Positions 1,937 to 17,787 of a stretch of DNA of 20,489 bases are shown piece by piece; within the stretch, counting starts at the first letter, position 1; each line of letters opens with the position of its first letter. The notes below the pieces were generated by a model. That model saw only the letters and a list, made by a program, of their open reading frames with translations. It searched no databases and was not told the DNA's origin. Made by a program: the position numbers and the translations under genes. This DNA comes from a virus. The stretch is taken from IMG/VR virus record IMGVR_UViG_3300006802_000774, positions 1 through 20,489 of that record; one strand, written 5' to 3'.

Positions 1937-3124
1937 TCAGCGTCCCAACGATTTCATCACGCTGGCGACGAAGTCCTCGCTCTTGGCGGCATTCGTATTG
2001 GCAGACTTGAAGCCGGGGTTGGTGGCTTTCGAAGTCACTCCCGGCTCGCTTCCACGATACTTGGCCAACTCAGCCTGAAGCCGCTTGTTCACCTCAACCT
2101 GAGCGTAGAGAAGCTCACGGTATTTCGGCGCAGCCGCAGCCCATAGAGCGGCCTTCGCAAGATCCTCTTCGCTGTTCTCACCGTTGAAGATTTGCTGGGC
2201 GAGACTCAGCCGCTGGTTCAGCTCGCTGTTCCATTCCTCGTCGTTCTCTCGCGGTTCGAAAATCTCCAGCGCGCGCGCATTCTCGCTGACCTTCTGCCAA
2301 GTCTTGGTTGCCTGCTCCAATGCAGCCTTGGTGCCTTCCTCGTTGTCCTGCTGGTACTTCGAGATGATGGCGTCGTAATCGGATTTCGCCTCGGCAATCT
2401 CGGCAGATTTCTCAGCGTTGATTTCATCGTAGCGAACGATGAGTGCGCCGAGCTTGGCCTTCTTGGCTGGCGAAAGACCGTCAACAATGTCGTCGATCTG
2501 CGAGTTGCGGTAATCGCTCTCAGGCGATTTTAGCAGGCCAACGAGCCGTTCGCCATCGGTGCCAACAAGAGTCTTCACAGACTCGAAGACGCCATTGATT
2601 CGGCCCTCGTACTTCTTGATGAACTCAGGGTGACGTTCGACATCGAGAAGGCGGACACGCTCGGAAAGAGCGTCACGCTCCTCCTGCAACGCCTTGAGCT
2701 GCGCGTCGTAATCGGGATTCGTGGCTTTGCCAGCCTTCAACTCGTCAAGCTGCTTGGCGAGCTGGGCCTTCTCTTCCTTGATCTTGCGGAACGCATCAGC
2801 CGCTTTCGTGGACTTGATGGTGTCAGGAATGTCGGCGTCAGCCTCCGAAGACTCCTCGGCAACAGGAGCGGACTTCTTCGATGAGAACATCCTTTCGATG
2901 TCCTTCTCGGCCTTGCTGAGGTTGGTATTCGAATCCTTCGGTTCCGGCTTCTTTGCCGTCTCGGTCTTCTTGGGCTGCTCAGTCTTCTTTGGTTCCTCGG
3001 TGACGGGAGCGGCAACGCCCTCTTCAGGCTCGACTCCCATGCGATTGAATGCGTCCAGAATTGAGTTCGAGAACTCCGGCTGCGAGCCGGGATTCACAAG
3101 CGGAGAGTTCAACGGTTCATCCAT
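1937..3124 (-). CDS. Coiled-coil head scaffolding protein candidate
   Basis: A 395-residue, highly charged, helix-rich protein. Residues about 35-75 are low-complexity Lys/Glu/Pro/Thr (EEPKKTEQPKKTETAKKPEP). Residues about 108-162 form a likely coiled coil (FRKIKEEKAQLAKQLDEL, then LQEERDALSERVRLLDVE). A long helical middle follows, and the C-terminus is a short, partly basic helix (DFVASVMKSLGR). Acidic and coiled N-terminal parts with a basic C-terminal helix suit phage scaffolding proteins, which direct procapsid assembly and then leave. Its place at the end of the terminase-portal block supports this. No capsid gene follows it, so another virion-associated role is possible. Confidence 0.55.
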   Translation of the reverse strand: MDEPLNSPLVNPGSQPEFSNSILDAFNRMGVEPEEGVAAPVTEEPKKTEQPKKTETAKKPEPKDSNTNLSKAEKDIERMFSSKKSAPVAEESSEADADIPDTIKSTKAADAFRKIKEEKAQLAKQLDELKAGKATNPDYDAQLKALQEERDALSERVRLLDVERHPEFIKKYEGRINGVFESVKTLVGTDGERLVGLLKSPESDYRNSQIDDIVDGLSPAKKAKLGALIVRYDEINAEKSAEIAEAKSDYDAIISKYQQDNEEGTKAALEQATKTWQKVSENARALEIFEPRENDEEWNSELNQRLSLAQQIFNGENSEEDLAKAALWAAAAPKYRELLYAQVEVNKRLQAELAKYRGSEPGVTSKATNPGFKSANTNAAKSEDFVASVMKSLGR

Positions 3125-3130
3125 AATTGG

Positions 3131-3451
3131 TTAGTATTGTTTTTCGAATGTAGCTTCGGGTTCTTTGACGGTTTCAGTCACGGACAATTTTCGAAGGTTC
3201 TCAAGACAGTGAGCGTAACCAGCGGTTACTCCTGCTGCAAAAATGATGTCCGTTTCATTGCTGCCATGAGCAGGCATCGGAACGGGCATCGATTCGGCAA
3301 CGATTCGCAATGCCATTCGAAGGATCGGGTTGCGAAGAATGGTGGCCAACTCAGCACTCTCACCGCTTGTCATCCATGCCGCGAGATTAACCTCCGGCAG
3401 GTTCATCAAGTCGCTCTTCGGGGTCTTGCTCAAGCCTCTTAGCCAGTTCAT
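3131..3451 (-). CDS. Small phage protein upstream of scaffold, unknown function
   Basis: The start at 3451 gives 106 residues (MNWLRGLSKTPKS...). A further upstream in-frame ATG at 3532 would add 27 mostly Arg/Asn/Thr residues lying wholly inside the preceding gene, so I prefer 3451. An AAGAAGAA purine run lies upstream of it. The protein appears helical, with LATILRNPILRMALRIVAES and a second helix around AAGVTAGYAHCLENLRKL. Similar small helical proteins often precede the scaffold in phage head operons, but I recognise no family. It overlaps the end of the propeller gene by 65 bases and lies 6 bases before the scaffold gene. Confidence 0.6.
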   Translation of the reverse strand: MNWLRGLSKTPKSDLMNLPEVNLAAWMTSGESAELATILRNPILRMALRIVAESMPVPMPAHGSNETDIIFAAGVTAGYAHCLENLRKLSVTETVKEPEATFEKQY

Positions 3452-4736
3452 TTTGTTTGTTCTTCTTTGGTTTCTTCTGTTTGTGGAATTTTGGAATCGG
3501 GTCCAGAACCTCGATGACACGGTCAGGAACATCCTTCTTCACGACATCGCGGCTTTGGCGCACGACCTTCGTGATGTCCAGCATGTCGGAGAGCGGAATC
3601 TTGATGTAACCGCAGTCCACATCATTGATGCCGTACGAGACAACGAATTGGTTCTTGTTGGAATCGAAGAATGCTCCGCACGGGAACACGACCGCAGGAA
3701 GTCCCGGCCACCAGTCCTGCTGATTGGTTCCGGTCAGGATCGGCAACGTCGTCATGCGGACGATGCGGAACGGAGCTTTCATCTCGAAAGCGTATGCCCC
3801 CATGTAATATCGACGCTTGCCATTGATCCACGGCAGCGAGCTGTGGAAGAAGGTCCAGTACAAGCCGTCGGCCATGATGGGGTTGGAGCCGCCGCGCACT
3901 TCGCCAAACTTCCAGAGTGGATTGAACTCTTCGGTGACGTATTCCTGCTCCTTTTCAAGGCGTCCATTCAGGCGTACAACGACATGCGGGTTGGCCGAAT
4001 ACACCATGTGTGGCGCGTTGTCGTGGACGAAGTAGAGCCAGTTCTTTTCATGGCCATCGTTCGTCATCGCCTGCGCGTAGTTGTTCCCGTAAATCGGGTC
4101 GAACCGCGCCACGTTGAAGAACTGCTTGTCCAAAAGGAACATCCCCTGATGGGCGTAGCTCTTGAATGGGATAAATGTGCAGCAGCTCAGGCCGAACTTG
4201 TCTCCGAACTTGACGACGCGAGGGTCTTCGAACTGCTCGTTTTCAAACTGAGACGTTAGCTGGATTAACGCCTTCTTTGTGGCACGAAGATCCTTCGAAA
4301 GCTCGAAGCAAACGATGTCGTTCTTCTCAAGATAAACCTCCTCATCCTTCTCCCGCTTGTTCCGGCAGCGACGGGCGAACAACAGGATCTGACCATTCGG
4401 CTCCATCGTGATGGCCGGATTGAAGTAGTAGGTTCCGACCTCTTCAGGCAGCACGATCTTTCCAACTTCCCAATCGACTTGATCGGCCAGCAGAGGGACA
4501 TCGTTCTTTGCGTAACTCATCAGGAATTCAGTCGCGAATTTGGTTTCATCGTACAGAGCAAGCCAATGGTCACGCTCCTCACGGACTAAAGTCAGATGCT
4601 CCTCATGTTCTTTGGTTCGAATCTCAAGCGTTTTGCGAAGCTCTTCGATCTGCATGAGCAAATCGGCATGGCCATCTCCACCGTTTGCAAACCGCTTTAA
4701 TGCTTTGAGTGACAGTTCACGGATGATGTCTTTCAT
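3387..4736 (-). CDS. GH130-like five-bladed beta-propeller protein
   Basis: A 449-residue protein. Residues 1-60 are a charged helix or coiled coil. Residues about 90-385 look like a GH130 propeller (mannoside phosphorylases and related hydrolases). Visible marks are YYFNPAITMEPNG (103-115), FARR (120-123), FEDPRVVKFGDKFGLSCC (169-186), RGGSNPIMADGLYWTFFHSS (281-300), RRYYMGAYAFE (308-318) and VVFPCGAFFDSNKNQFVVSY (349-368), followed by GINDVDCG. The last 45 residues are Lys-rich and probably disordered. The family acts on beta-mannosides or related oligosaccharides; the substrate here cannot be told. It is the last of six sugar-related genes and overlaps the upstream methyltransferase by ATGA. 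A purely binding role on the virion is an alternative. Confidence 0.65.
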   Translation of the reverse strand: MKDIIRELSLKALKRFANGGDGHADLLMQIEELRKTLEIRTKEHEEHLTLVREERDHWLALYDETKFATEFLMSYAKNDVPLLADQVDWEVGKIVLPEEVGTYYFNPAITMEPNGQILLFARRCRNKREKDEEVYLEKNDIVCFELSKDLRATKKALIQLTSQFENEQFEDPRVVKFGDKFGLSCCTFIPFKSYAHQGMFLLDKQFFNVARFDPIYGNNYAQAMTNDGHEKNWLYFVHDNAPHMVYSANPHVVVRLNGRLEKEQEYVTEEFNPLWKFGEVRGGSNPIMADGLYWTFFHSSLPWINGKRRYYMGAYAFEMKAPFRIVRMTTLPILTGTNQQDWWPGLPAVVFPCGAFFDSNKNQFVVSYGINDVDCGYIKIPLSDMLDITKVVRQSRDVVKKDVPDRVIEVLDPIPKFHKQKKPKKNKQNELAKRLEQDPEERLDEPAGG

Positions 4737-5347
4737 TTTTTTCTAAACACGCGCGTTTTTCCATTCTCAAGATACATTACATGCTCGTACTTCTTCAAAG
4801 CCAACGTCTGGCAAAGTTGCATTTCGTTCCAATTCGCGTCATCCATGATGAATAGACCTCCGGTCTTTATTTTCGGAGTCCAAGCAATCAAGTCGCGCGA
4901 AGAATCCCACTCCGTATGCGCCCCATCCAAATGAAGGATGTCGATGCTTTCATCTGAAAAATCAAACGAAGCATCAAGAGATGTCTTCCTGATGATCGAC
5001 ATGTTTTCATCAAGACCCCTAGCTTTGAAGTTTTCCTTAAAATCTATGGCGATTTTGTCCAGCTCCTCTTGGCTTGAGCCAAGGTTTGCGTTGTAACCGT
5101 TTTCAGCCATCGCGACTGCGCTCCACGGATCGATGGCAACAACTTTTGTATTGGTAATCAATGAAGCGGCGCAAAAACTCGAAAGACTAAGGCCAAGCCA
5201 AACGCCCACTTCGACCACAAGCGACGGCTTTGTTTCCAAAACAACGTCGAACATGTATCTACTCTTATCTTCGTAAGTCCATCCGTGAACGGTATCTCTG
5301 ATTTCAAGGACTTTGTTCCAAGCCGATGTTTGATCGATTTGTTGCAT
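4733..5347 (-). CDS. Class I SAM-dependent methyltransferase (Methyltransf_24-like), copy 2
   Basis: A 204-residue protein with a Rossmann-type methyltransferase core. Motif I is VVEVGVWLGLSLSS (44-57), the ribose-binding acid is probably Asp73 in VVAIDPW, and the post-II region is DILHLDGAHTEWDSS (136-150). GGLFIMDDANWNE follows at 163-175. The HLDG.H...D / GG...DD pattern is typical of the Methyltransf_24 group, often found with sugar-modifying enzymes. It is clearly related to the methyltransferase at 7175-7792. Base composition is AT-richer than the portal gene (about 38% GC in a 60-base sample). The start lies 1 base after the upstream GT25 gene, with no clear Shine-Dalgarno, so translation is probably coupled. 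The acceptor is unknown. Confidence 0.75.
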   Translation of the reverse strand: MQQIDQTSAWNKVLEIRDTVHGWTYEDKSRYMFDVVLETKPSLVVEVGVWLGLSLSSFCAASLITNTKVVAIDPWSAVAMAENGYNANLGSSQEELDKIAIDFKENFKARGLDENMSIIRKTSLDASFDFSDESIDILHLDGAHTEWDSSRDLIAWTPKIKTGGLFIMDDANWNEMQLCQTLALKKYEHVMYLENGKTRVFRKK

Positions 5348-5348
5348 A

Positions 5349-5978
5349 TTAAGGGTGAAGGTTTGATTTTTCTTGGGTAGCTAATCTTGGTAGAATTCCG
5401 TAAAAATTCATCCTTGGAATTGAATCCAAAACCATCTGGATATCGATGGGTGCCCAGACTTTTTGATTTGTTTCGAGCAGCTTGCAAACACCTTCGTAAT
5501 TTACGAGATAGCAATGGGTACACATACCCTGAGTTAACTTGTAAAGGTTTGCTCCGACATGCCGATGTAGGGCGACATCGTCCGTGCAGCAGCTTCCGAT
5601 GTACACGACATGCCAATCGTCAGGAAGAACGGCCAAGTTTTCTGACAAAACACTTTTCCAATCGCTGCGCGTGAACTCGACATCGTCCTCGACGACGAGG
5701 AACACACGATGCGGGGTGATGGCCGACTCGACCATCCACTTGATGGACGCCCAGATGTTGAAGTGGCTGAGTCCAGCCACAATCGTTTTGGAGCTTATCT
5801 TCTCCTTCTCGCGACTCTTGTAGTAGTCCGTGGAAATTCCGCAGTTGTTCGCGCGAAAACCGTAGATCGGGACAGCGTTGATTCCGAACGACCGGGTGTA
5901 CCTGATGCCCCTTTGCTCCATGTCACTCCCCGGCTTCGACACCATGAATGTCGGGGTTGATTCAATGTTGAGGGTCAT
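5349..5978 (-). CDS. GT25-family glycosyltransferase, copy 2
   Basis: A 209-residue protein with the hallmarks of family 25 (LPS-biosynthesis type) glycosyltransferases. These are an N-terminal strand with an early Arg, the central VFLVVEDDVEF (92-102) supplying the acidic metal/nucleotide-sugar motif, LPDDWHVVYIGSCC (118-131), MCTHCYLVN (152-160) and APIDIQM (176-182) before ILPRLATQE. Such enzymes move a sugar from a nucleotide donor onto LPS, other glycans or protein. It shares GSCC, CTHCY and APID.QM with the GT25 gene at 6569-7171, so the two are paralogues. It starts by ATGA overlap with the upstream methyltransferase. Donor and acceptor are not predictable here. Confidence 0.75.
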   Translation of the reverse strand: MTLNIESTPTFMVSKPGSDMEQRGIRYTRSFGINAVPIYGFRANNCGISTDYYKSREKEKISSKTIVAGLSHFNIWASIKWMVESAITPHRVFLVVEDDVEFTRSDWKSVLSENLAVLPDDWHVVYIGSCCTDDVALHRHVGANLYKLTQGMCTHCYLVNYEGVCKLLETNQKVWAPIDIQMVLDSIPRMNFYGILPRLATQEKSNLHP

Positions 5979-6565
5979 CTGTTTGGCAGGATGTAGATGA
6001 TTCCGCGCATCGCACCCGTCGCCCTCGAAGGGTGATTGTAATAATAACTGTACCCAAACTTTTGGGTCAGAGTTTTAGCGCGATAAATGGCGTCCAGCTT
6101 TGGCTTGATGTAGTCGAAACAGAAGTCGTGTCCGTTGTAAGAGTCGTATCCAAGCCTCCCGGTCGGTTCCTTGAAATCGTGAATTGCAATGACCGGATGC
6201 AGATCATATCGGTTGATTGCCTCAAGCTCATCAAGCAATGGGCAGTAGTCATTCCAATGGGCATCCAGAAAGAAGATGGTGTCGTGGCCAACCCCGTTGT
6301 GCGGGATGAACCAGTTCATGCAGGCATCGCTGCTGCCTTCGAACATCTCCACATGGACCTTCGAATCAGCAAACTTTTGGCGAGCGTGAACAACGCGATT
6401 GTGGTCAAGTTCGCATGAAACCGTTTTCAGGAAATTCTTGGCAAGCCACACAGTCGTGTCGCCTTCAAACGTCCCGGTTTCAACCGCTGTCGTAAGCTCG
6501 AAGCGTTCCTTGAGGTAAAGGAACTCCTGCTCGATAAATGTGTCTCCGTTGAAAGGCTCACCCAT
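5975..6565 (-). CDS. SAM-dependent methyltransferase-like protein (second type)
   Basis: A 196-residue protein with a Rossmann-like N-terminal half. The glycine motif is AVETGTFEGDTTVWLA (27-42), an acidic residue ends the second strand (VSCELD, 49-54), then HARQKFADSKVHVEMFEGSS and DTIFFLDAHWNDYCPL. The later half (IAIHDF, GHDFCFDYIKPKLD, YSYYYNHPS) is divergent. It resembles small class I methyltransferases found in viral and bacterial sugar clusters, but differs from the two Methyltransf_24-like copies in this cassette. It lies 3 bases after one GT25 gene and overlaps the next by ATGA. The target is unknown; loss of methyltransferase activity cannot be excluded from sequence. Confidence 0.65.
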   Translation of the reverse strand: MGEPFNGDTFIEQEFLYLKERFELTTAVETGTFEGDTTVWLAKNFLKTVSCELDHNRVVHARQKFADSKVHVEMFEGSSDACMNWFIPHNGVGHDTIFFLDAHWNDYCPLLDELEAINRYDLHPVIAIHDFKEPTGRLGYDSYNGHDFCFDYIKPKLDAIYRAKTLTQKFGYSYYYNHPSRATGAMRGIIYILPNR

Positions 6566-6568
6566 ATT

Positions 6569-7171
6569 TTATTCCGCCAAATAATTGTCTTCTTGATCCG
6601 CAACGCGCGGAAAAATTGTGAAGCACTTTAGTTTTTCCCGGCTTTTGAAATACATCTGAAGATCGATTGGAGCGTAAATCTCCTCGTTGGTTTCGATCAG
6701 CGTTTCGAGTGCCTTCTTTCGAACGATGTAGCAATGGGTACAAAGCGGCATTCCCTCAAACAGATTCGAATCCAGTTCGCGCCCCATCCTTCCTCTTGCA
6801 CAGCATGAACCGGGATACAAGATGTCCCAATCTTCAGGTAATTTCGTCAGCGCGCGTTCAATGGTTTCGCGCCAATGCGGCTTAAAAATCACATCATCCT
6901 CAAGCACCATCACCATTTCTTGAGTCGAAGGCTCGAAATCCAATGCGTTCCAAAGCATCCAATGGGACATTGTGCATCCGACATGCTTGGCTCCGATCAA
7001 ATAGCCCGACCCCGGACTATCAACTTCGTATGGAATGCTCGCTTTTAAGCCTGATTTTGCGCCGTTTAATCCATTGAAGATGCGATAGTCAACGATTCCG
7101 GCAGACTTCAGGTTCTCTTGAAGACGATTTATGCGCGATGACCCGCGCATGGCGATAACAACCGTTTGCAC
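6569..7171 (-). CDS. GT25-family glycosyltransferase, copy 1
   Basis: A 200-residue protein. The start is GTG at 7171: it keeps the family's first strand (VVIAMRGSSRINRLQENL), which the internal ATG would lose, and AAGGA lies about 10 bases upstream. Diagnostic marks are VMVLEDDVIF (87-96), LPEDWDILYPGSCC (111-124), LCTHCYIV (143-150), YAPIDLQMYF (166-175) and IFPRVADQED. This is a complete short GT25 domain of the type that adds hexoses in LPS and related glycans. It lies 3 bases from each flanking methyltransferase gene. The similarity to the GT25 at 5349-5978 extends over several motifs, so duplication within the cassette is likely. Confidence 0.75.
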   Translation of the reverse strand: MQTVVIAMRGSSRINRLQENLKSAGIVDYRIFNGLNGAKSGLKASIPYEVDSPGSGYLIGAKHVGCTMSHWMLWNALDFEPSTQEMVMVLEDDVIFKPHWRETIERALTKLPEDWDILYPGSCCARGRMGRELDSNLFEGMPLCTHCYIVRKKALETLIETNEEIYAPIDLQMYFKSREKLKCFTIFPRVADQEDNYLAE

Positions 7172-7174
7172 GGG

Positions 7175-7792
7175 TTACTTATCCTTTCGATAGATTGCGA
7201 AACAGCTCTCAGCCAAGTCATGCCGAGAAACAAAAGAACAACGCTTCAGAACGAACTTGATTGCAGTCTGCGTCGATTCCCAATTCACATCGTCCATCAC
7301 TAGGTAGCCTCCAACCTTCAGCTTCGGAAGCCAGTTGACGACATCGCTGGTGGACGGCCATTCAGCGTGGTTCGCATCGATATGAACCATGTCCATGTCA
7401 GGGAGAAATCGCGAGGCATCCCAAGATGACATGCGGCAGAACTGGATGTGCTTCACGACATCGGCCCGCACCGTGTGGGCAACGAAGTTCGCGTAGTGCT
7501 GGTCAAGATCCAGCTTGGACCACCATTCTTGATTGGCGTTCGATTCGTCGTCGATGCAGTCCTCGCGCTTCCACGAATCAATGGCGTAAATGATTCCGTG
7601 GCCATTGAGCTTGCAGGCGTGGGCCATCGAAAGCGTTGACTTGCCCTCAAAAACTCCAACCTCAGCGATTTTCAGCGGACGTTCACGCAAGACAAGATTG
7701 GCAAGCTCGATTCCTTTACGCGGGTCACACCAACCTCCCATTTTCGGAAAGTTGTCCCTGATAAAATTCTCGACGCTTTCTTGGTGTGTCAT
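7175..7792 (-). CDS. Class I SAM-dependent methyltransferase (Methyltransf_24-like), copy 1
   Basis: A 205-residue protein with motif I IAEVGVFEGKSTLSMA (42-57), acid-loop IIYAIDSW (67-74), DMVHIDANHAEWPSTSDVVN (134-153) and GGYLVMDDVNW (161-171). These are the marks of Methyltransf_24-type enzymes. It is the first gene of the sugar cassette and overlaps the portal stop by ATGA, so it is tied to late head-gene expression. The C-terminal half aligns by eye with the methyltransferase at 4733-5347 (H.D..H.EW, GG...MDD.NW, then a helix). Likely substrates are sugars or glycoconjugates, by context only. Confidence 0.75.
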   Translation of the reverse strand: MTHQESVENFIRDNFPKMGGWCDPRKGIELANLVLRERPLKIAEVGVFEGKSTLSMAHACKLNGHGIIYAIDSWKREDCIDDESNANQEWWSKLDLDQHYANFVAHTVRADVVKHIQFCRMSSWDASRFLPDMDMVHIDANHAEWPSTSDVVNWLPKLKVGGYLVMDDVNWESTQTAIKFVLKRCSFVSRHDLAESCFAIYRKDK

Positions 7793-10035
7793 TGACGCAG
7801 CAGTTGGGCTTCCGCAGTTGCATTCGCGCGCTGGATGTCAGCGGTGGTCTTCGCATTCCGGCGAGCCAAGTCGGCCATCGCCTTCGTGTTCTGACGCTGG
7901 ATATTTGCCGCAGTCTCGGCGTTCTGGCGAGCGATTTTTGCCTGAATCTCCGCATTCATCACCGCCGTCTTCGGATCAACACCCTGCTGAATCGCCGCAG
8001 CCTGCTGCATCTGCATCTGCGCCTGCTGCTGCTCGGCAATGAATCCAGAAAGCTGCTGCACCGTATCCGAAAGAATCTGGAGCTGCTGCCGGTACGCTTC
8101 CACCTCGTTGCGGCGAGTCGGATCAGTCGAGAGCCTGAGCAGGTGGTCCTGCACATGCTGACCAATGCCCTGCAAGAACAACGTAATCTCCTGCGGATTT
8201 CCGCCCTGCTGGATCGAGCCAGCCGCCTCGTTCGCCGCCGCAAGATGCGTGTTGATGTGGATGATGTGACTCTGCGTATCCGTCACGACAACCATGTTGC
8301 CCTGACGCAGCGAGCCATGCTCAAGCACCGCAAGAGCAGCCTGATCCTGAGCCTTCGCAGACTGGATCTGGCTCGGCAGATAGCGGTCAACCATCTGCTG
8401 GCCAACCTGAGCGGCAATGTAGTCCTGCAAGAGATTGATCTTGCCACCTTCAGGAAGCGAACCAAGCAGGCCAAGAAGTGAGCCAAGAAGCTGCTGCTTC
8501 GCGAACTGAGAACCTTGGCCAACCGTTCGAGTCGCCTCCACGAAGTCGATGTCCATCATCGCCTGAACAGGAACACCACGCTCCTTGCATCGACGCTGGA
8601 ACTCGATGGCATCCTTGTCCGACTTCGTGATGGGGTTCAGGTTAGGATTGGACGCGCGGCGGTAACGCTCCTCGAAGAAAGCATCGAGCTGGTTGTAATA
8701 CCGACTGAGCTGCGTCTTACCGATGGCCGACTGCTGCGCTACAATCGCTTGGATTTCAGTCGCAGTCCTCGGGTTGCCGCTCGGCTTGTTGAGCGATTGG
8801 CGATACTGAGAAAGGTTGCCCTGAAGAACATTCTCAAGGTCCGCGTTGACCGCCATAGGAGCGTCAAGAACCCCAGCAATGTTCTGCTGAATGACCTCGT
8901 AGTCGGGAGGGAGTATCGCATACGGACCTTGCTGAACCACGCTGGTCTTCGTCAGCGCGTTCGGGTTGAGGGGGCGGAAGAGAATCTGCGTACGAGCAAA
9001 CGCGCTGTCCACCATCGAGCAGCGAAGCCGGTTCTTCAGCTCCATCGCTTGGAGCATCTTGATGCCCAAGCCCTTGACGCCGTGATGCTCGCCATCGCCA
9101 CGGTCGTAATACATCGGATGGATGACCTGCTCCCACCGATTGAATCGACGCAGCTTCCGGTACATGAAGTCGCCGCTGTCACGCTCATCGATGATGACAT
9201 GGCTGATCTGACCATCGAACTCCTTGTAGAAGACATGGCACATCAGCACGACCTCGGAACGCGCGCTGAACGTGATGTCGTTCGAACGAAGCTGACGCTG
9301 GAAGAACTCCCAATCGTACTGGACGCCGGAACGATACGGCTCAGGCATCGCCGCCCGAATACGCTCGCGCACATAGTCCACGTTCCATCCAGCCGCCTTT
9401 GCCGCCTCCTCGTCCTGAATCTTCTCGAAAAGGTCGTCCACACCCATCCGGGTTCGAACGCAGGCCACCTTCCAATCGCTCACATTGGACTTGGTGCCGT
9501 CAGGAACCAGAAGGTCCGTCGCCATGATGGCTTTGCACCGCCAATTGGTGCTGTCCTCAAAGATCAAAGGGCCGTGGCCAATGAGAACCATCTCACGCTG
9601 CGAAAGCTGCATGAGATAGTCGAAGTCCTTGTCCAACTTCTGGAGACGGTCGAACTCCTCGGTGATGATCTTCGACCACTCCTCCCGCTTATCCATGTCG
9701 TTGCCGTAAGCAGTACGGATGTTCGCGTAGGTAGGAACCTCAGCGAAAACATCGTAGAAGGCCGACATGGCCAACGTCAGAAAGGCTTCCGACTCGCGGA
9801 AATTGACGTTGGTTCGGAACGCCTGATTGTTCCGGCGAAGATCCGCAGGGTTGTACGGAGGATTGCCATCGACCAAACCGCGCAGCTTCGCGCGGGTGTT
9901 GTTCCGCAGCTCGTCTGCCGAAATCAACTTCTGGAAGATTTCACGGGCCGATGCCGCATCCGCAATGCGCGTCTCGGGGGCCGTCCCGTTCTCGTTGATC
10001 GTCTGGAGCGGCAGTTGGGCTATGTTTCCGTACAT
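7789..10035 (-). CDS. Portal protein
   Basis: A 748-residue protein between terminase and scaffold, in the size range of podovirus portals. The N-terminal half is mixed alpha/beta with AKLRGLVDGNPPYNPADLRR, VNFRESEAFLTLAMSAFYDV, a WSKIITEEFDRL helix and FMYRKLRRFNRWEQVIHPMY. The middle has GLGIKMLQAMELKNRLRCSM and SGNPRTATEIQAI, typical of the clip/stem-wing region of large portals. The last ~180 residues are helical and Gln/Ala-rich, ending in four 11-residue repeats. The portal is a dodecameric ring at one capsid vertex through which DNA enters and leaves. The long helical end may form a barrel, as in P22 portal (inference). Overlaps the zinc-ribbon gene by 16 bases. Confidence 0.8.
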   Translation of the reverse strand: MYGNIAQLPLQTINENGTAPETRIADAASAREIFQKLISADELRNNTRAKLRGLVDGNPPYNPADLRRNNQAFRTNVNFRESEAFLTLAMSAFYDVFAEVPTYANIRTAYGNDMDKREEWSKIITEEFDRLQKLDKDFDYLMQLSQREMVLIGHGPLIFEDSTNWRCKAIMATDLLVPDGTKSNVSDWKVACVRTRMGVDDLFEKIQDEEAAKAAGWNVDYVRERIRAAMPEPYRSGVQYDWEFFQRQLRSNDITFSARSEVVLMCHVFYKEFDGQISHVIIDERDSGDFMYRKLRRFNRWEQVIHPMYYDRGDGEHHGVKGLGIKMLQAMELKNRLRCSMVDSAFARTQILFRPLNPNALTKTSVVQQGPYAILPPDYEVIQQNIAGVLDAPMAVNADLENVLQGNLSQYRQSLNKPSGNPRTATEIQAIVAQQSAIGKTQLSRYYNQLDAFFEERYRRASNPNLNPITKSDKDAIEFQRRCKERGVPVQAMMDIDFVEATRTVGQGSQFAKQQLLGSLLGLLGSLPEGGKINLLQDYIAAQVGQQMVDRYLPSQIQSAKAQDQAALAVLEHGSLRQGNMVVVTDTQSHIIHINTHLAAANEAAGSIQQGGNPQEITLFLQGIGQHVQDHLLRLSTDPTRRNEVEAYRQQLQILSDTVQQLSGFIAEQQQAQMQMQQAAAIQQGVDPKTAVMNAEIQAKIARQNAETAANIQRQNTKAMADLARRNAKTTADIQRANATAEAQLLRQ
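7804..7935 (-). repeat. Four 11-residue (hendecad) coding repeats at the portal C-terminus
   Basis: Portal residues 701-744 read as four consecutive 11-mers: IARQNAETAAN, IQRQNTKAMAD, LARRNAKTTAD and IQRANATAEAQ. Positions 1 (I/L), 3-5 (R-x-N/A-like) and 7-10 (Ala/Thr-rich) are conserved. An 11-residue period favours a nearly straight or right-handed coiled coil and suggests an extended multi-helix barrel. Confidence 0.7.
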
Positions 10036-10643
10036 GGTCGTTTTTTCCAGCAGTGAGCCGGTAGGTTTTCGTTCTCTGTAGCGTCTGTGAAGCGGTGAAG
10101 TGTTTCAATGGGAAACCACACCATGCTACGAATGAAACACCCGCAAAATTCGCAGCTTTGGACCTTGTCGTCGTATGGGGTCGAGCCGTGCTGAGAGAAA
10201 GTTTTGACCGCCTCCTTCAAGACTCTCGCATTGCAACCCGTACATCCAAGCGGTTGGCGATTGAACCTGCATGTTGAACATATTGCTGCACGTTTAGTCG
10301 CCTCTTCCTGACTTACCTTTCCGCCACCAACGGTAAGGCCATGCAACAAACTCATGCTGAACCGGATGACATCGCCAATCTGTAGCGACTTCCGGCCAGC
10401 AGGCTTCGGAATCTCAATCTCGTTGAACGAGCAATCCGCACCATTTCGGCACAGGAACTCGACAATCATGTCGTCGATGTTAGCCGGTAATTGCAAAGAG
10501 TTTGCAGCGTAATGGTTTTTCACAAACTCCCGTAGCTGAGGCAATGAGCCTGCCGGGATGTCGATGCCGGTTTCCGGCACTCGATAATGCCAGCCACCGG
10601 GGATGACCATGTGTTCGTTGAGAATCTTGTATCCGCTGCTCAT
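10020..10643 (-). CDS. Zinc-ribbon-like protein between terminase and portal
   Basis: A 207-residue protein with 11 cysteines, seven of them in two clusters: C122-x2-C125-x8-C134-x2-C137 (ICSTCRFNRQPLGCTGC) and C164-x2-C167-x-C169 (SCEFCGC). A final HC pair lies at 197-198. These could hold one or two zinc ions. The N-terminal 110 residues contain a GGWHYRVPETGIDIPA segment and a helix at LPQLREFVKNHY, without a family I can name. The start overlaps the terminase stop (ATGA) and the end overlaps the portal start, so all three are made together. Similar cysteine-rich proteins sit between terminase and portal in other phages. A role in packaging or head assembly is inference. Confidence 0.65.
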   Translation of the reverse strand: MSSGYKILNEHMVIPGGWHYRVPETGIDIPAGSLPQLREFVKNHYAANSLQLPANIDDMIVEFLCRNGADCSFNEIEIPKPAGRKSLQIGDVIRFSMSLLHGLTVGGGKVSQEEATKRAAICSTCRFNRQPLGCTGCNARVLKEAVKTFSQHGSTPYDDKVQSCEFCGCFIRSMVWFPIETLHRFTDATENENLPAHCWKKRPCTET

Positions 10644-12316
10644 GCGTTTTCGTGGTAGATGCTGTCGGCGTCGCGAACCATCTTTTCCCAGAGCTTATCA
10701 GCTTTGGTTGCTCGCGGCTCCAAGACAGCGGTTTTTCGCACCAGATCAAGCAAGACTACAGCAGCGTCGGCCAAATCAGGCGATTTTCCGGTTCTCTGCT
10801 TCATCACGGTCTTTGATTCGACCGAAATCTTCCGCTTCCCATCATCGAACATGCGCGCGCAGAACTCTTGCAGCGTCTGCATGTCCAAGCCTCCGACACG
10901 CTCCTCAACGACCCATTTACGCATCGAGAACCAAAGTTCCGTCACCTTGCGGTCGTATGCCTCATTGCATGGCCGACTATCCTCGTCGCTGACAGGCATG
11001 GCGGACGGAGAGCCGCCAAACTCAACGCGATGAACAATTCCCCATTCGCGAGTCAGAATGTCGGCCAATCCGCCGCCTTCACCGCTTGAATCAAGAGCGA
11101 ATCTGTCCGGCCTGATGCCGCGAGCGTTGCACTCCTCTTTGACTCGATTGGCAATCTGGTAATGAACCGGCTCTGTAAGCTGCGCGTTGGGTGAAATGTG
11201 GATGATGTCGCCAAACAAGATGCTCATCTTGTCGTTGGCTGTACCAACTTTTGCGAATCGAAGGATACACCTGTCGCCACCGAAACCCGGATCAAGAGCA
11301 GCCACCTGCTCGACATTCGCAGTAAACACCAATTTTTTTGTAGGTGTATGCGTGTCAATCAGCGACTCGGACAAGACCGTCTTGACCATGCCGTCTGGTG
11401 CCCAGAATCCGCGCGTGTACTTCCAGAATGTCGGACTCTGCTCGCCCTCATGGCGCATGGCCGACAGAACCTGATCGTGCGTAATCAGGTACGGATACTT
11501 CGTTCGCCCCTCGCTGATGTTGGGCGACTTCATTCCGTCAAACCGTCGGCAGATGCCACGTTCTGTCAGCCAATGCTGATCCTCGATGGTGACGCTTCTC
11601 CATCCTTTTGCCGGAGTACAGAACCGGCCATGAGGATCGAACTTCGAAGCCGGGTTTCCGATGACCAACATCTTGAACTCGCGGCAACCTTTGCTGAGGT
11701 TCGTGCAGGCTTCGAATGCTGCTTCCGGCGTATCCGTCGCCTCGTCAATGATGACCATGACACGCTCGGCGTGAATACCTTGGATGTTGGCCACCGCCTT
11801 TGAGGTGTTGCCCTCTGCAACCGCAATGGCAGAAATCGAATGCCGGTCGTCTCCTTTGACAGCTTGGAGAGCCATCTTCGAATCGACCATGTTGCCCGGA
11901 AACCCGCGAGTCTTGCGAACCAAGTCCTGAAGATTGGCCCACATACGTTTGCGGATCATCTTCGCGGTCGTCGATGTCAGAACGACTGTTGACTTGAGAG
12001 GGTTGGCCAACCACCAGACAGTCGCGAATAAAGTTGCCCCGTAGGTCTTGCCGCTGGCACCGCATCCGGCCCATCCAACGTAATCGTAATCGCAGAGGCT
12101 TTCGACCTGAGCTTCCAGCCACGGGTTCCAGCTCATCTTCGGCCAGATCATCTTCGTGGCGTTACGGAAATGATCGAACGTGCCTAATCCACCCTCATTG
12201 GGTTGCAGGCGATTGCGAAAAGCGTACAGCTCAAGCTCTAGGTCTGGAATTTTGACCGGAGAACGGATGCCGTACTTGTGTTCAATCAATGGATGCTCAG
12301 ACGCTTGTTCCGCCAT
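10640..12316 (-). CDS. terL: Terminase large subunit
   Basis: I start it at 12316 (MAEQASEH..., 558 residues), with AAGG upstream. A longer start at 12382 would overlap the divergent fibre gene. The ATPase has Walker A GCGASGKT (84-91), Walker B VMVIIDEA (186-193) and a coupling motif VIGNP (218-222). The RNase H-like nuclease has acids in ALDPGFGGD (Asp342), FALDSSGEGG (Asp409) and SPDLADAA (Asp514, Asp517). This is a complete two-domain packaging motor: ATP-driven DNA translocation into the head through the portal, plus genome cutting. It is the first gene of the leftward block. No small terminase subunit was recognised in the window. Confidence 0.92.
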   Translation of the reverse strand: MAEQASEHPLIEHKYGIRSPVKIPDLELELYAFRNRLQPNEGGLGTFDHFRNATKMIWPKMSWNPWLEAQVESLCDYDYVGWAGCGASGKTYGATLFATVWWLANPLKSTVVLTSTTAKMIRKRMWANLQDLVRKTRGFPGNMVDSKMALQAVKGDDRHSISAIAVAEGNTSKAVANIQGIHAERVMVIIDEATDTPEAAFEACTNLSKGCREFKMLVIGNPASKFDPHGRFCTPAKGWRSVTIEDQHWLTERGICRRFDGMKSPNISEGRTKYPYLITHDQVLSAMRHEGEQSPTFWKYTRGFWAPDGMVKTVLSESLIDTHTPTKKLVFTANVEQVAALDPGFGGDRCILRFAKVGTANDKMSILFGDIIHISPNAQLTEPVHYQIANRVKEECNARGIRPDRFALDSSGEGGGLADILTREWGIVHRVEFGGSPSAMPVSDEDSRPCNEAYDRKVTELWFSMRKWVVEERVGGLDMQTLQEFCARMFDDGKRKISVESKTVMKQRTGKSPDLADAAVVLLDLVRKTAVLEPRATKADKLWEKMVRDADSIYHENA

Positions 12317-12370
12317 AGTTTGGCCTTGCAATAGTTCTCGCTGGACTTGAGCTTCTGGGAAAGGAAAAAT
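12317..12370. promoter_or_regulatory. Divergent intergenic region between terminase and fibre genes
   Basis: These 54 bases separate two divergent blocks and should hold, or lie close to, promoters for both. I see no convincing -10/-35 pair on either strand, so promoters may be phage-specific or lie inside the genes. The only clear signal is the fibre gene's ribosome binding site. The call rests on gene orientation alone. Confidence 0.3.
12361..12365 (+). promoter_or_regulatory. Ribosome binding site of the fibre gene
   Basis: AAGGA lies 5 bases before the ATG at 12371. This decides the start in favour of 12371 over an in-frame ATG at 12347, which has no such site and would add eight residues. 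Confidence 0.65.
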
Positions 12371-13588
12371 ATGCCGTCGCAACTTGCTTCTTCATCCGGC
12401 TGTTGCCAGCCTTGCGACTCCGAGCCGATTGTCGTGAATATCCCCGGCCCTCAAGGCGAGCCGGGAACCAATGGCACCAACGGAGTTGATGGAATCGATT
12501 CCTTCACCTACACGACAGCTCCGTTCTTCGTCCCCGCGCTTGGCTCGTTTGTCCTCGTTTTCGTGGACAACACCGACTTTTTGCCAGAGTCGGTTGCCGG
12601 TCAGTTCTTCGTTTCGATTCAGGGGCTTGGTTACATGCAGGTGCTGTCTGTTGACGGCCTGCAACTAACGCTTCAAAACCCCGCTGCCGGTGTTCTTGGC
12701 ATCGCAAACGCGATTCCGACAACGCTTATCCCGACCGGCTCTCTCATTACACTTGCCGGTGCTATCGGGCCTACTGGTGCCGCTGGTGCCGCTGGTGGTG
12801 CACCTACGGGTGCTTCTTACATCTGCCGCACGGGCGACGGTACGCTGACCAACGAGACGGCTCTCGACCTTCTTGCCGCCGGTTACATGAAGACCGCCGG
12901 TTCGGGCGGTTCCGGTGTTGTTTCAACTGTTGCCACGGTTCCTGTGGCCGACATCAGCGGAACGCTTCCGATTGCCAAAGGCGGAACCGGAGTCTCCACA
13001 ACCCCCACCAACGGCCAGCTACTTATCGGCAATGGCAGCGGTTTTACGCTGGCTACCCTGACTCAGGGTTCCGGTATTACGATTACTCCGGGTGCTGGAA
13101 GCATCAGCATTGCTTCAACCTCCCCGACTCCGTTCAATTATGTTACGTTTACACGCCGTGTAAGCGGGACGATTGGTGCTGGCGTCCCTCTAATCGCCTC
13201 TGGAGACATTAAAAATCCGTTTAGCAGCGGAGATTTCGGTTCAGGTTCGTGGTCAACGCTTGATCCTTCTTCCGCGTTCACCGCTGCTACCGGCAAATTC
13301 GCGACTCCATACACGGGGTACTACCGCATCGATTTGAACCTGATTTTGTTGGGTCAAGGTGGAACCGCTCAAGTGATTGTTTCTATCAGTAAAAATGGAT
13401 CAAATGTTCTTACAAGCAGGACATTCAATGTCACTAATGCGGCGCAAAGCCTTAACCCTGTGTGCATGAACTACATCGATTATTCGTCTGTAGTTGGAGA
13501 CACATACGACGTTGTTATCACATCTACCAGCAACGGTCTTTACGTTGACAACGGTTCGTCGATTTCTGTCCACCGCATTCAGGCTTAA
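12371..13588 (+). CDS. Collagen-like tail fibre with C1q-like C-terminal domain
   Basis: A 405-residue protein. Residues 11-15 are CCQPC, followed by a short collagen-like run GPQGEPGTNGTNGVDG (26-41). Residues 50-130 form a beta-rich module (PFFVPALGSFVLVFVDNTDF, then FVSIQGLGYMQVLSVDGLQL). A second Gly-Ala run (GPTGAAGAAGG) follows. Residues 199-250 hold the common fibre segment PIAKGGTGVST...GQLLIGNGSGFTLATLT...GSGITIT. The last ~135 residues look like a C1q/TNF jelly roll (FTAATGKFATPYTGYYRIDL, later GDTYDVVITS and SSISVHRIQA). Such proteins trimerise and bind receptors. It heads the rightward block, divergent from the terminase. A receptor-binding fibre is the best reading. Confidence 0.8.
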   Translation: MPSQLASSSGCCQPCDSEPIVVNIPGPQGEPGTNGTNGVDGIDSFTYTTAPFFVPALGSFVLVFVDNTDFLPESVAGQFFVSIQGLGYMQVLSVDGLQLTLQNPAAGVLGIANAIPTTLIPTGSLITLAGAIGPTGAAGAAGGAPTGASYICRTGDGTLTNETALDLLAAGYMKTAGSGGSGVVSTVATVPVADISGTLPIAKGGTGVSTTPTNGQLLIGNGSGFTLATLTQGSGITITPGAGSISIASTSPTPFNYVTFTRRVSGTIGAGVPLIASGDIKNPFSSGDFGSGSWSTLDPSSAFTAATGKFATPYTGYYRIDLNLILLGQGGTAQVIVSISKNGSNVLTSRTFNVTNAAQSLNPVCMNYIDYSSVVGDTYDVVITSTSNGLYVDNGSSISVHRIQA

Positions 13589-16262: not shown

Positions 16263-17230
16263 AGCTGATCGTTCAGGACATCCGTTCGACAATCGCTCGG
16301 GTCATCGGCGTATGCGTCGATGATGCGCGCGTTTACGATTACATCAATCAGGCGTGTCGAAGGCTTCTGCACAAGGGCCTTTGGGCCGGTGCTTATGGAC
16401 GCTTCACCATCCACACGACCGGCGGATGCATCACTTGGCCACGACAGATCGAAACCATCGAGGCCATCGCTGATTGCTGCGGCGTCGGTGTCGTCCGCAA
16501 TCAATGGTTCGAATTCCAAGAAACCGGCTATGGACTTCTCAATGGCAATCAAGTCTGCATTGGCAAGCAGCTTATTGATCGTGGCACTGTGGTTTCTTAC
16601 CGCGATTTGTCTGGTGGCACTAACAGCTACATTCGAGTTTATGCTGGCGACGCTTCGGACGTTGGCAAAACCATCACGCTCCAAGGAGTCGATCAGAACG
16701 GTCAATGGATCAGAACTCAATCCGGTGGAGCGTGGATCGACGGAGAAAAGCTGACGCTCGCTTTGCCGTACGTTCAGTCCACGAAGAAGTTCACGCAGCT
16801 TACGGGTGTCATCCGCGAGGCGACGAATACGGTGAGCCGCTTGTACGAGTACGACGCGACTGCTCTGACCGAGACTGACATCGCCGTTTACGACCCTGAT
16901 GAGACTCTGCCGCAGTATCGTCGCAGCTACTTGGCCGACCGATGCAGCGCGGATGAGGATAAGCCGGTGACGGTCATGGCGAAGATGCGCCACATCAATG
17001 CGACGAGCGTCAACGATTACATCATTCCTCCGTGTCCTGATGCCATCAAGCTAATGGTCATGGCCATTCGCAAGGAGGAGAACGATCTGATTCAGGAAGC
17101 TGTGGCCTACGAAGCCAAAGCCATTCAAGCTGTGCAGGAGCAGACGATGCAATACATGGGCGATGCGGTGCATACGATCCGCATGGTGGGCGTCGGATTG
17201 AATGGCGGGGGATTCTACCAGTGGTACTGA
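16259..17230 (+). CDS. Head-to-tail adaptor-like structural protein
   Basis: A 323-residue protein with a helical N-terminus: VQDIRSTIARVIGVCVDDAR, then VYDYINQACRRLLHKGLW, followed by GRFTIHTTGGCITWPRQIET. The pattern 'iN.A...L...G.W.g......i....g.itlPR.ie' recurs in phage virion proteins near connector genes. The middle is beta-rich (VVSYRDLSGGTNSYIRVYAG). The end is helical (DAIKLMVMAIRKEENDLIQE, then AVAYEAKAIQAVQEQTMQYM). I infer a connector or tail adaptor below the portal. It overlaps the preceding gene (ATGA) and the next gene by 10 bases. Tail tubular protein is an alternative. Confidence 0.55.
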   Translation: MKLIVQDIRSTIARVIGVCVDDARVYDYINQACRRLLHKGLWAGAYGRFTIHTTGGCITWPRQIETIEAIADCCGVGVVRNQWFEFQETGYGLLNGNQVCIGKQLIDRGTVVSYRDLSGGTNSYIRVYAGDASDVGKTITLQGVDQNGQWIRTQSGGAWIDGEKLTLALPYVQSTKKFTQLTGVIREATNTVSRLYEYDATALTETDIAVYDPDETLPQYRRSYLADRCSADEDKPVTVMAKMRHINATSVNDYIIPPCPDAIKLMVMAIRKEENDLIQEAVAYEAKAIQAVQEQTMQYMGDAVHTIRMVGVGLNGGGFYQWY

Positions 17231-17787
17231 ACCTCAACATCGATTTCGCGTTTGGCGAAGTTACTCCAAAGAAACTGGAGCTTCTTCAGGCTGTCTTTGA
17301 CGCGCATGACATGGCGGCGCGTAGCAATCAAAACGCGAGTTCCGCTGCCGCCATGAATGCATTCTTTGGAAGCGGAAATCTGACCAATGGAATTGCATCC
17401 TCCATTCTTACTCTTGGCGACGCTCATGGTCCTATTGGACCTGCTCGATTTGTTTACGAACGGTTTGACGAACGGGCGTTGAAGTCGGCCATTGAAGCCG
17501 GAATGAAGATTCCCGGCTTTGGAAACTCTTTCTTCAAAGATCGGATTGATCCTGCGTGGAGTCGGGTGCGCGAGATTATCGAGACTGACTTTCCGAATGC
17601 CAATGAACGCATCAAGCAGCTTCACGCTTGGATGAAGGAAGCTGGCAAAGATGTTTACCCAAATGCGGCTATTTACACGGCGGTAATTTGCAGCGAGCTG
17701 GTGATGAGTCCGGGTTCAGAGTCGGCCATCTTCATCTTGGCGAGGACTTCAGCTTGGACATCGATGTGCATAAAAAATGAAAGGTAA
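17221..17787 (+). CDS. Citrate-synthase-like protein, short form
   Basis: Starts at GTG 17221 with GGGGGA about 8 bases upstream, overlapping the preceding gene by 10 bases. The 188 residues follow citrate synthase/citryl-CoA lyase motifs in order: LLQAVFDAHDMAARSNQNAS (21-40, cf. ADHE.N.S), LGDAHGPIGPARFVYE (65-80, cf. GPLHGGAN), IPGFGNSFFKDRIDPAW (97-113, cf. PGFGHRVYK.DPR), YPNAAIYTAVI (146-156, cf. PNVDFYSG) and IFILARTSAW (170-179, cf. F...R..GW). The first catalytic His is kept (His69). The second is Asn102, and the Asp position is Ala150. Enzymes of this family are about 260-430 residues, so this is a minimal core. Normal citrate synthesis is unlikely. It sits among structural genes, so its job is unknown. 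Confidence 0.6.
   Translation: MVLNLNIDFAFGEVTPKKLELLQAVFDAHDMAARSNQNASSAAAMNAFFGSGNLTNGIASSILTLGDAHGPIGPARFVYERFDERALKSAIEAGMKIPGFGNSFFKDRIDPAWSRVREIIETDFPNANERIKQLHAWMKEAGKDVYPNAAIYTAVICSELVMSPGSESAIFILARTSAWTSMCIKNER

Follow-up and report, generated by a model that had tools for sequence, protein, structure and literature searches.

Glycan genes of described viruses and the slot compared with them

Glycosylation of phage virions is known from a few mycobacteriophages, where it has mostly been discussed as a shield from mammalian antibodies, and in giant viruses (mimivirus, PBCV-1) virus-encoded glycosyltransferases (GT) and methyltransferases (MT) build methylated virion glycans. Here we examined a set of MT and GT genes located in the head operon of an uncultivated phage, on a stretch of viral DNA of 20,489 bases (hereafter the window; positions 1-20,489 of IMG/VR record IMGVR_UViG_3300006802_000774). 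The head operon of this phage and its relatives contains a genuine glycan-modifying slot that is under selection. Since long records of the same phage group run to ~41-47 kb, the window is probably part of a longer genome. The giant-virus systems differ from the one described here in that they belong to eukaryotic viruses, comprise larger gene sets and include sugar-nucleotide synthesis.

The nearest precedent, which has been studied experimentally and has the same position, is found in Corndogvirus (cluster O mycobacteriophages), where the gene order is terminase, portal, O-methyltransferase, three glycosyltransferases (Corndog gp35-38 for the four cassette genes), protease and capsid (PMC4351075). 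The cassette enzymes are reported, in passages of PMC11600133 and PMC12363180 that both cite Freeman et al. and in PMC4351075, to glycosylate the capsid and the tail tube, whereas in the window phage glycosylation is predicted from gene content. Our comparison was made with Catdawg and Firecracker. In Corndogvirus, as in the window phage (whose portal is named by position), MT and GT genes joined by short overlaps follow the portal directly in the head operon, and an O-methyltransferase comes first. Catdawg gp36, in size and gene order the counterpart of Corndog gp38 (the fourth cassette gene), belongs to family GT25 (PF01755) and matches the profiles of two glycosyltransferases of the window group, GTa (29 bits, E 1.7e-10, six-sequence search) and GTc (24 bits). 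The Corndogvirus methyltransferase is PF13578/TylF, the Pfam family of the methyltransferases MTa and MTc of the window group, without a direct profile match. No relation between the terminases and portals of the two groups was detected in any search made, and the Corndogvirus cassette, which is followed by the protease and capsid genes, has no counterpart of the GH130-like gene described below. Furthermore, the Corndogvirus set is fixed: about 31 records contain most of the portal-capsid stretch, with 98.5-100% identity and the same four genes among the members listed, in contrast to nine fillings in the window group. The position of the slot and its kinds of enzymes were therefore already known; what differs is exchangeability, the slot being hypervariable here.

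Two other phage systems share part of this arrangement. The host-recognition cluster of pelagimyophages and cyanomyophages (PMC7029224) is also a hypervariable island in the structural region that carries glycosyltransferases, but it spans tens of kilobases and includes tail fibres and many other genes, whereas the present slot measures 1.2-3.1 kb, holds only GT and MT genes and is exchanged at precise gene boundaries. Burkholderia phage AP3 carries a GT25 homologue of GTa and GTc, matched by the GTa profile, that adjoins structural genes as the last gene of the tail operon; unlike in the window phage, this is a single gene of a P2-like phage with no neighbouring methyltransferase.

Slot content and exchange between close relatives

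IMG/VR contains at least 165 relatives of the protein in the portal position, of which 80 were fetched (88-100% identity); ten further contigs were added through single-module searches, so that 90 related contigs were compared. No relative of this protein was found in 50,697 phage records or in genome contigs. The phage group is large, widespread, aquatic and uncultivated. A search with the GH130-like protein gave one match in genome contigs, a phage contig of the group (L169) binned in a Nitrosomonadales metagenome-assembled genome; it is the sole host clue and a weak one, and a Nitrosomonadales host was not assigned from this single contig.

The GH130-like gene was present in all 60 loci that span the region from portal to scaffold, the window included. 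Between the portal end and the GH130 start, typing of stop-to-stop open reading frames (ORFs) revealed nine complete architectures built from nine gene types: GT32-MTd-MTa-GTa; GT7C-MTb-GTb; MTa-GTa-MTb-GTb; GT32-MTd-GTc-MTc; GT32-GTc-MTc; MTa-GTa; GT7C-MTa-MTb-GTb; MTa-GTa-MTb-GTb-MTc, found in the window and in L002 only; and GTa-MTb-GTb-MTc. A further locus (L058, with GT32-MTd-GTc adjoining GH130) lies at a contig end and was left out of the type count. Every complete filling consists of methyltransferases and glycosyltransferases and nothing else, and no empty slot was found among the loci compared, the slot length ranging from 1235 to 3053 nt over the complete types. The GH130-like gene is thus fixed backbone, and the five genes that precede it in the window represent one filling out of nine or more.

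The first-pass annotation of the window had described six genes (MT, GT25, MT, GT25, MT and a GH130-like propeller) separated by gaps of 1-3 bases or 4-base overlaps, and this description is accurate: all six are intact and, from the portal-position gene onward, the junctions are a 4-base overlap (7789-7792), two gaps of 3 bases, a 4-base overlap, a gap of 1 base and a 4-base overlap. Its suggestion that the six genes are present or absent as a unit has to be replaced by a fixed GH130 gene and five exchangeable ones, with no empty site in relatives. Alternation of MT and GT genes characterizes the window filling and a few others and is not a general trait. Scattered or degenerate copies, which that annotation had named as evidence against a dedicated glycan cassette, were never observed in relatives.

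When cassette type was placed on a tree of portal DNA (78 loci), 27 changes were needed (least possible 8), compared to a mean of 45.8 after shuffling, with none of 200 shuffles as low as 27. The types are therefore clustered, yet often switching. The number of changes was 25 on a tree of the terminase large subunit (TerL) and 19 on a tree of GH130 plus scaffold; because this downstream tree needs fewer changes, the result suggests that exchanged tracts often extend into GH130 and scaffold. The closest pair with different slots, L038 and L039, has 99.7% identical portal DNA and carries MTa-GTa and GT32-MTd-MTa-GTa, respectively; other such pairs are L032/L042 (99.4%), L007/L009 (98.1%), L018/L023 (97.2%) and L014/L013 (96.6%). 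In L014/L013 and L018/L023, DNA homology is lost at most about ten bases from the stop codon of the portal gene, and none is left in the slot itself; it is regained no more than a few bases from the start codon of GH130. In pairs with a common module, such as L007/L009, it returns earlier than the GH130 start.

Enzyme families, selection and possible function

Pfam places GTa, GTb and GTc in GT25 (PF01755), GT32 in PF04488, GT7C in PF02709, MTa and MTc in PF13578 and MTd in PF08241. Profile alignment with hhalign connects GTb to GTa (probability 99.87%) and to GTc (99.85%), so that the three are mutual homologues, and MTa and MTc are likewise homologous. The closest solved structure to GTa is mimivirus R655. 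MTb is a putative methyltransferase, as judged from a weak Pfam match and an ETGT motif resembling those that bind S-adenosylmethionine (SAM). In the modules, conservation is seen for the acidic motif of GT25, the DXD motif of GT32 and the SAM motifs.

The best PHROG matches, phrog_2675 (annotated as DNA methyltransferase) and phrog_2835 (glucosyltransferase), could point to glycosylated or methylated bases or nucleotides in the phage DNA as a protection against restriction. The Pfam matches, however, are to O-methyltransferase and sugar-transferase families, and no hydroxymethyl-pyrimidine, thymidylate-synthase-like or kinase genes were seen among 20 genes of L076/L071, most of them conserved, in a Pfam scan that covered part of the genes. 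Moreover, DNA modification would leave the nine alternative sets of a head operon unexplained, and we consider it highly improbable.

All slot modules are under purifying selection. The median ratio of non-synonymous to synonymous substitutions (dN/dS) of the nine module families lies between 0.048 and 0.098, compared to 0.043 for TerL, 0.060 for portal, 0.080 for GH130 and 0.107 for scaffold. Chance is excluded as an explanation of the cassette, since dozens of contigs contain these genes in intact form, at dN/dS values of 0.05-0.10. Several modules have a GC content of 0.42-0.46 against 0.51-0.55 in the backbone, which together with the frequent switching of cassette type would fit a recombination hot spot that gathers glycan genes of little benefit to the phage (moron turnover). 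Such turnover is nevertheless very unlikely in view of a slot that is never empty and contains only GT and MT genes, tightly packed, with intact frames and low dN/dS.

The GH130-like protein scores 43.4 bits against PF04041 (curated cut-off 26). Its motif E170-D171-P-R is invariant in 13 diverse relatives and aligns with IEDAR of Lin0857 and YDPR of TM1225, so that E170-D171 appears to lie where the family has its putative catalytic acid (PMC4599007). In a weak alignment, Glu279 (E279) occupies a position that is Arg in Lin0857 and Lys in TM1225. In GH130 hydrolases, carboxylates replace the phosphate-binding basic residues (PMC4599007); if the position of E279 is one of these, it would hint at a non-phosphorylase activity. 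The phage protein resembles GH130 mannoside phosphorylases and β-1,2-mannosidases in its domain and its invariant Glu-Asp, and differs from them by an extra N-terminal helix and a basic C-terminal tail. An AlphaFold2 model based on 13 sequences (predicted local distance difference test, pLDDT, 42) was too poor for structure search.

The best-supported reading, which we regard as probable, takes the slot for a virion-glycan cassette that is polymorphic and switches in a serotype-like manner. The head operon would be expressed late, leading to the production of soluble phage glycosyltransferases, mainly of family GT25, which may put a few sugars on a structural protein of the phage capsid, fibre or tail while in the cytoplasm; capping or modifying these sugars would fall to the paired O-methyltransferases. 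The fixed GH130-like protein might act on a sugar or linkage that the glycans have in common, or might be their binding partner. The filling would be exchanged by homologous recombination in the conserved genes that flank it, portal upstream and GH130/scaffold downstream, and by this exchange close relatives would build different glycans. Selection may act through escape from surface-based recognition, through adsorption tuning or through the stability of the virion. This reading is supported by nine fillings of MT and GT genes only that are never empty, frequent switching, sharp breakpoints, low dN/dS and conserved catalytic motifs, as well as by modules without convincing transmembrane segments, the Corndogvirus precedent and a scan of 20 genes in which base-hypermodification enzymes were not found. 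The first-pass annotation had put forward two roles, a dedicated glycan built during virion assembly or remodelling of host surface glycans. Its coherent MT/GT set in the head operon is upheld, with the Corndogvirus precedent as further support, while its six-gene unit is not.

Several observations weigh against a virion glycan. Cassette content was compared with other genes in 13 partial Mantel tests that controlled for portal distance, and neither the putative major capsid protein (MCP) nor scaffold or TerL showed an association with it. The associations with the fibre gene (r 0.12, within-clade p 0.005) and with the neighbouring gene p267 (r 0.09, p 0.04) are weak, their p values being uncorrected and not significant after correction for 13 tests. 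The slot contains no sugar-nucleotide synthesis genes, so donors must come from the host. GT25 enzymes are chiefly known from the synthesis of lipopolysaccharide (LPS), and serotype-like variation lacks an obvious reason in water, where adaptive immunity does not come into play.

The main rival is a late remodelling of the host surface, by which LPS, O-antigen or capsule precursors would be modified in the cytoplasm, superinfecting phages or released progeny would then fail to bind infected cells or debris, and the variation would track host surface types. The Pfam description of GT25 as classically an LPS family is consistent with it, the weak link between cassette type and tail-fibre genes could mean host matching, and such a role has been proposed for the glycosyltransferases carried by pelagimyophage host-recognition islands (PMC7029224). 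However, no membrane protein, flippase or ligase occurs in any filling. A convincing transmembrane segment is missing from all modules (19-residue hydropathy peaks at 1.75 for MTc and at no more than 1.28 elsewhere), in contrast to phage O-antigen seroconversion (gtr) systems, which consist of a membrane flippase and a polytopic transferase. The head-operon location, which would imply late expression, and the Corndogvirus enzymes, which are reported to modify virion proteins, also argue against it, making host-surface remodelling rather unlikely.

The fibre protein of the window contains two conserved collagen-like Gly-X-Y stretches (e.g. GPQGEPGTNGTNGVDG) and a weak C1q-like C-terminus. Family GT25 includes collagen glycosyltransferases. 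Glycosylation of these collagen-like stretches was set aside as speculation, as no lysines occur in the Gly-X-Y repeats and no hydroxylase was seen.

By analogy with bacterial O-antigen loci, the virion-glycan cassette could, more tentatively, be viewed as a phage "serotype locus", at which near-identical phages trade complete glycan-writing programmes in one fixed slot next to a fixed GH130-like partner, with a virion surface chemistry that may switch rapidly and be frequency-dependent.

Gene coordinates, further observations and meaning

The head operon lies on the minus strand in the order TerL, Cys-rich gene, portal-position gene, MTa, GTa, MTb, GTb, MTc, GH130-like gene, small gene and scaffold-like gene (Table 1). 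The cassette had been placed between portal and scaffold, and this placement is correct, with a small gene also preceding the scaffold-like gene; both names are assigned by position or composition. The portal-position protein had no match in Pfam, PHROG and PDB searches and is named by its place after TerL, and the scaffold-like protein, without a match in HMM and PDB searches, is named by position and composition. An AlphaFold2 model of the portal-position protein (12 sequences, pLDDT 39) was too poor for structure search.

Table 1. Features of the window and the evidence for their naming.
Feature	Coordinates	Strand	Evidence
Terminase large subunit (TerL), first head-operon gene, conserved backbone	10640..12382	-	phrog_2 1.3e-22; 72-100% identity, 75 relatives
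Cys-rich (CxxC) gene between TerL and portal, no family	10020..10643	-	78 relatives, median identity 81%
Portal-position gene, 748 aa, left edge of exchangeable slot	7789..10035	-	place after TerL; at least 165 relatives
MTa, predicted SAM methyltransferase, O-methyltransferase/TylF-like	7175..7792	-	PF13578 1e-18; motif AEvGVFEGKST conserved; dN/dS 0.086
GTa, GT25-family glycosyltransferase	6569..7171	-	PF01755 9.6e-14; EDD motif conserved
MTb, methyltransferase-like	5975..6565	-	PF13578 0.007 (below cut-off); ETGT motif; dN/dS 0.048
GTb, GT25-family glycosyltransferase	5349..5978	-	PF01755 8.7e-5 (just below cut-off); hhalign to GTa and GTc
MTc, predicted SAM methyltransferase, TylF-like, extra module	4733..5347	-	PF13578 2e-18; hhalign to MTa 99.7%
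GH130-like protein, N-terminal predicted helix and GH130 domain, fixed right slot edge	3387..4736	-	PF04041 2.7e-11; 60/60 spanning loci
Small gene, ~106 aa, between GH130-like and scaffold-like	3131..3451	-	start at Met28 of ORF, as in relatives; 60 relatives, mostly 107-110 aa
Scaffold-like acidic coiled-coil protein	1937..3124	-	position and composition; 59 relatives
Fibre protein	12347..13588	+	collagen-like stretches; weak C1q-like C-terminus
C-terminal half of citrate-synthase-like protein, neck/tail operon	17221..17787	+	PF00285 2.7e-7

For the citrate-synthase-like gene no N-terminal half was seen in the window; this gene and the next one were found in 16 of the 80 relatives, mostly at more than 80% identity. 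The putative MCP (L082 6708-8012, L071 record; 434 aa) lies on the opposite strand several kb past the scaffold-like gene, had no match in HMM and PDB searches, and may be a displaced capsid gene or a misassignment. A second variable site is located between the fibre gene and TerL in the L071 and L018 records, where some relatives carry an extra fibre-like protein of 663-805 aa and two small genes. Finally, the 92,531-base record L003 contains a second, divergent set of tail/fibre-type genes at ~33-50 kb, and may represent either two joined phages or a larger genome.

If the virion-glycan reading is true, an aquatic phage group swaps its glycan genes where animal immunity plays no part, which would mean that the phage surface itself is under diversifying selection in nature. 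The near-identical natural pairs with different cassettes would open the purpose of phage glycans to direct testing.

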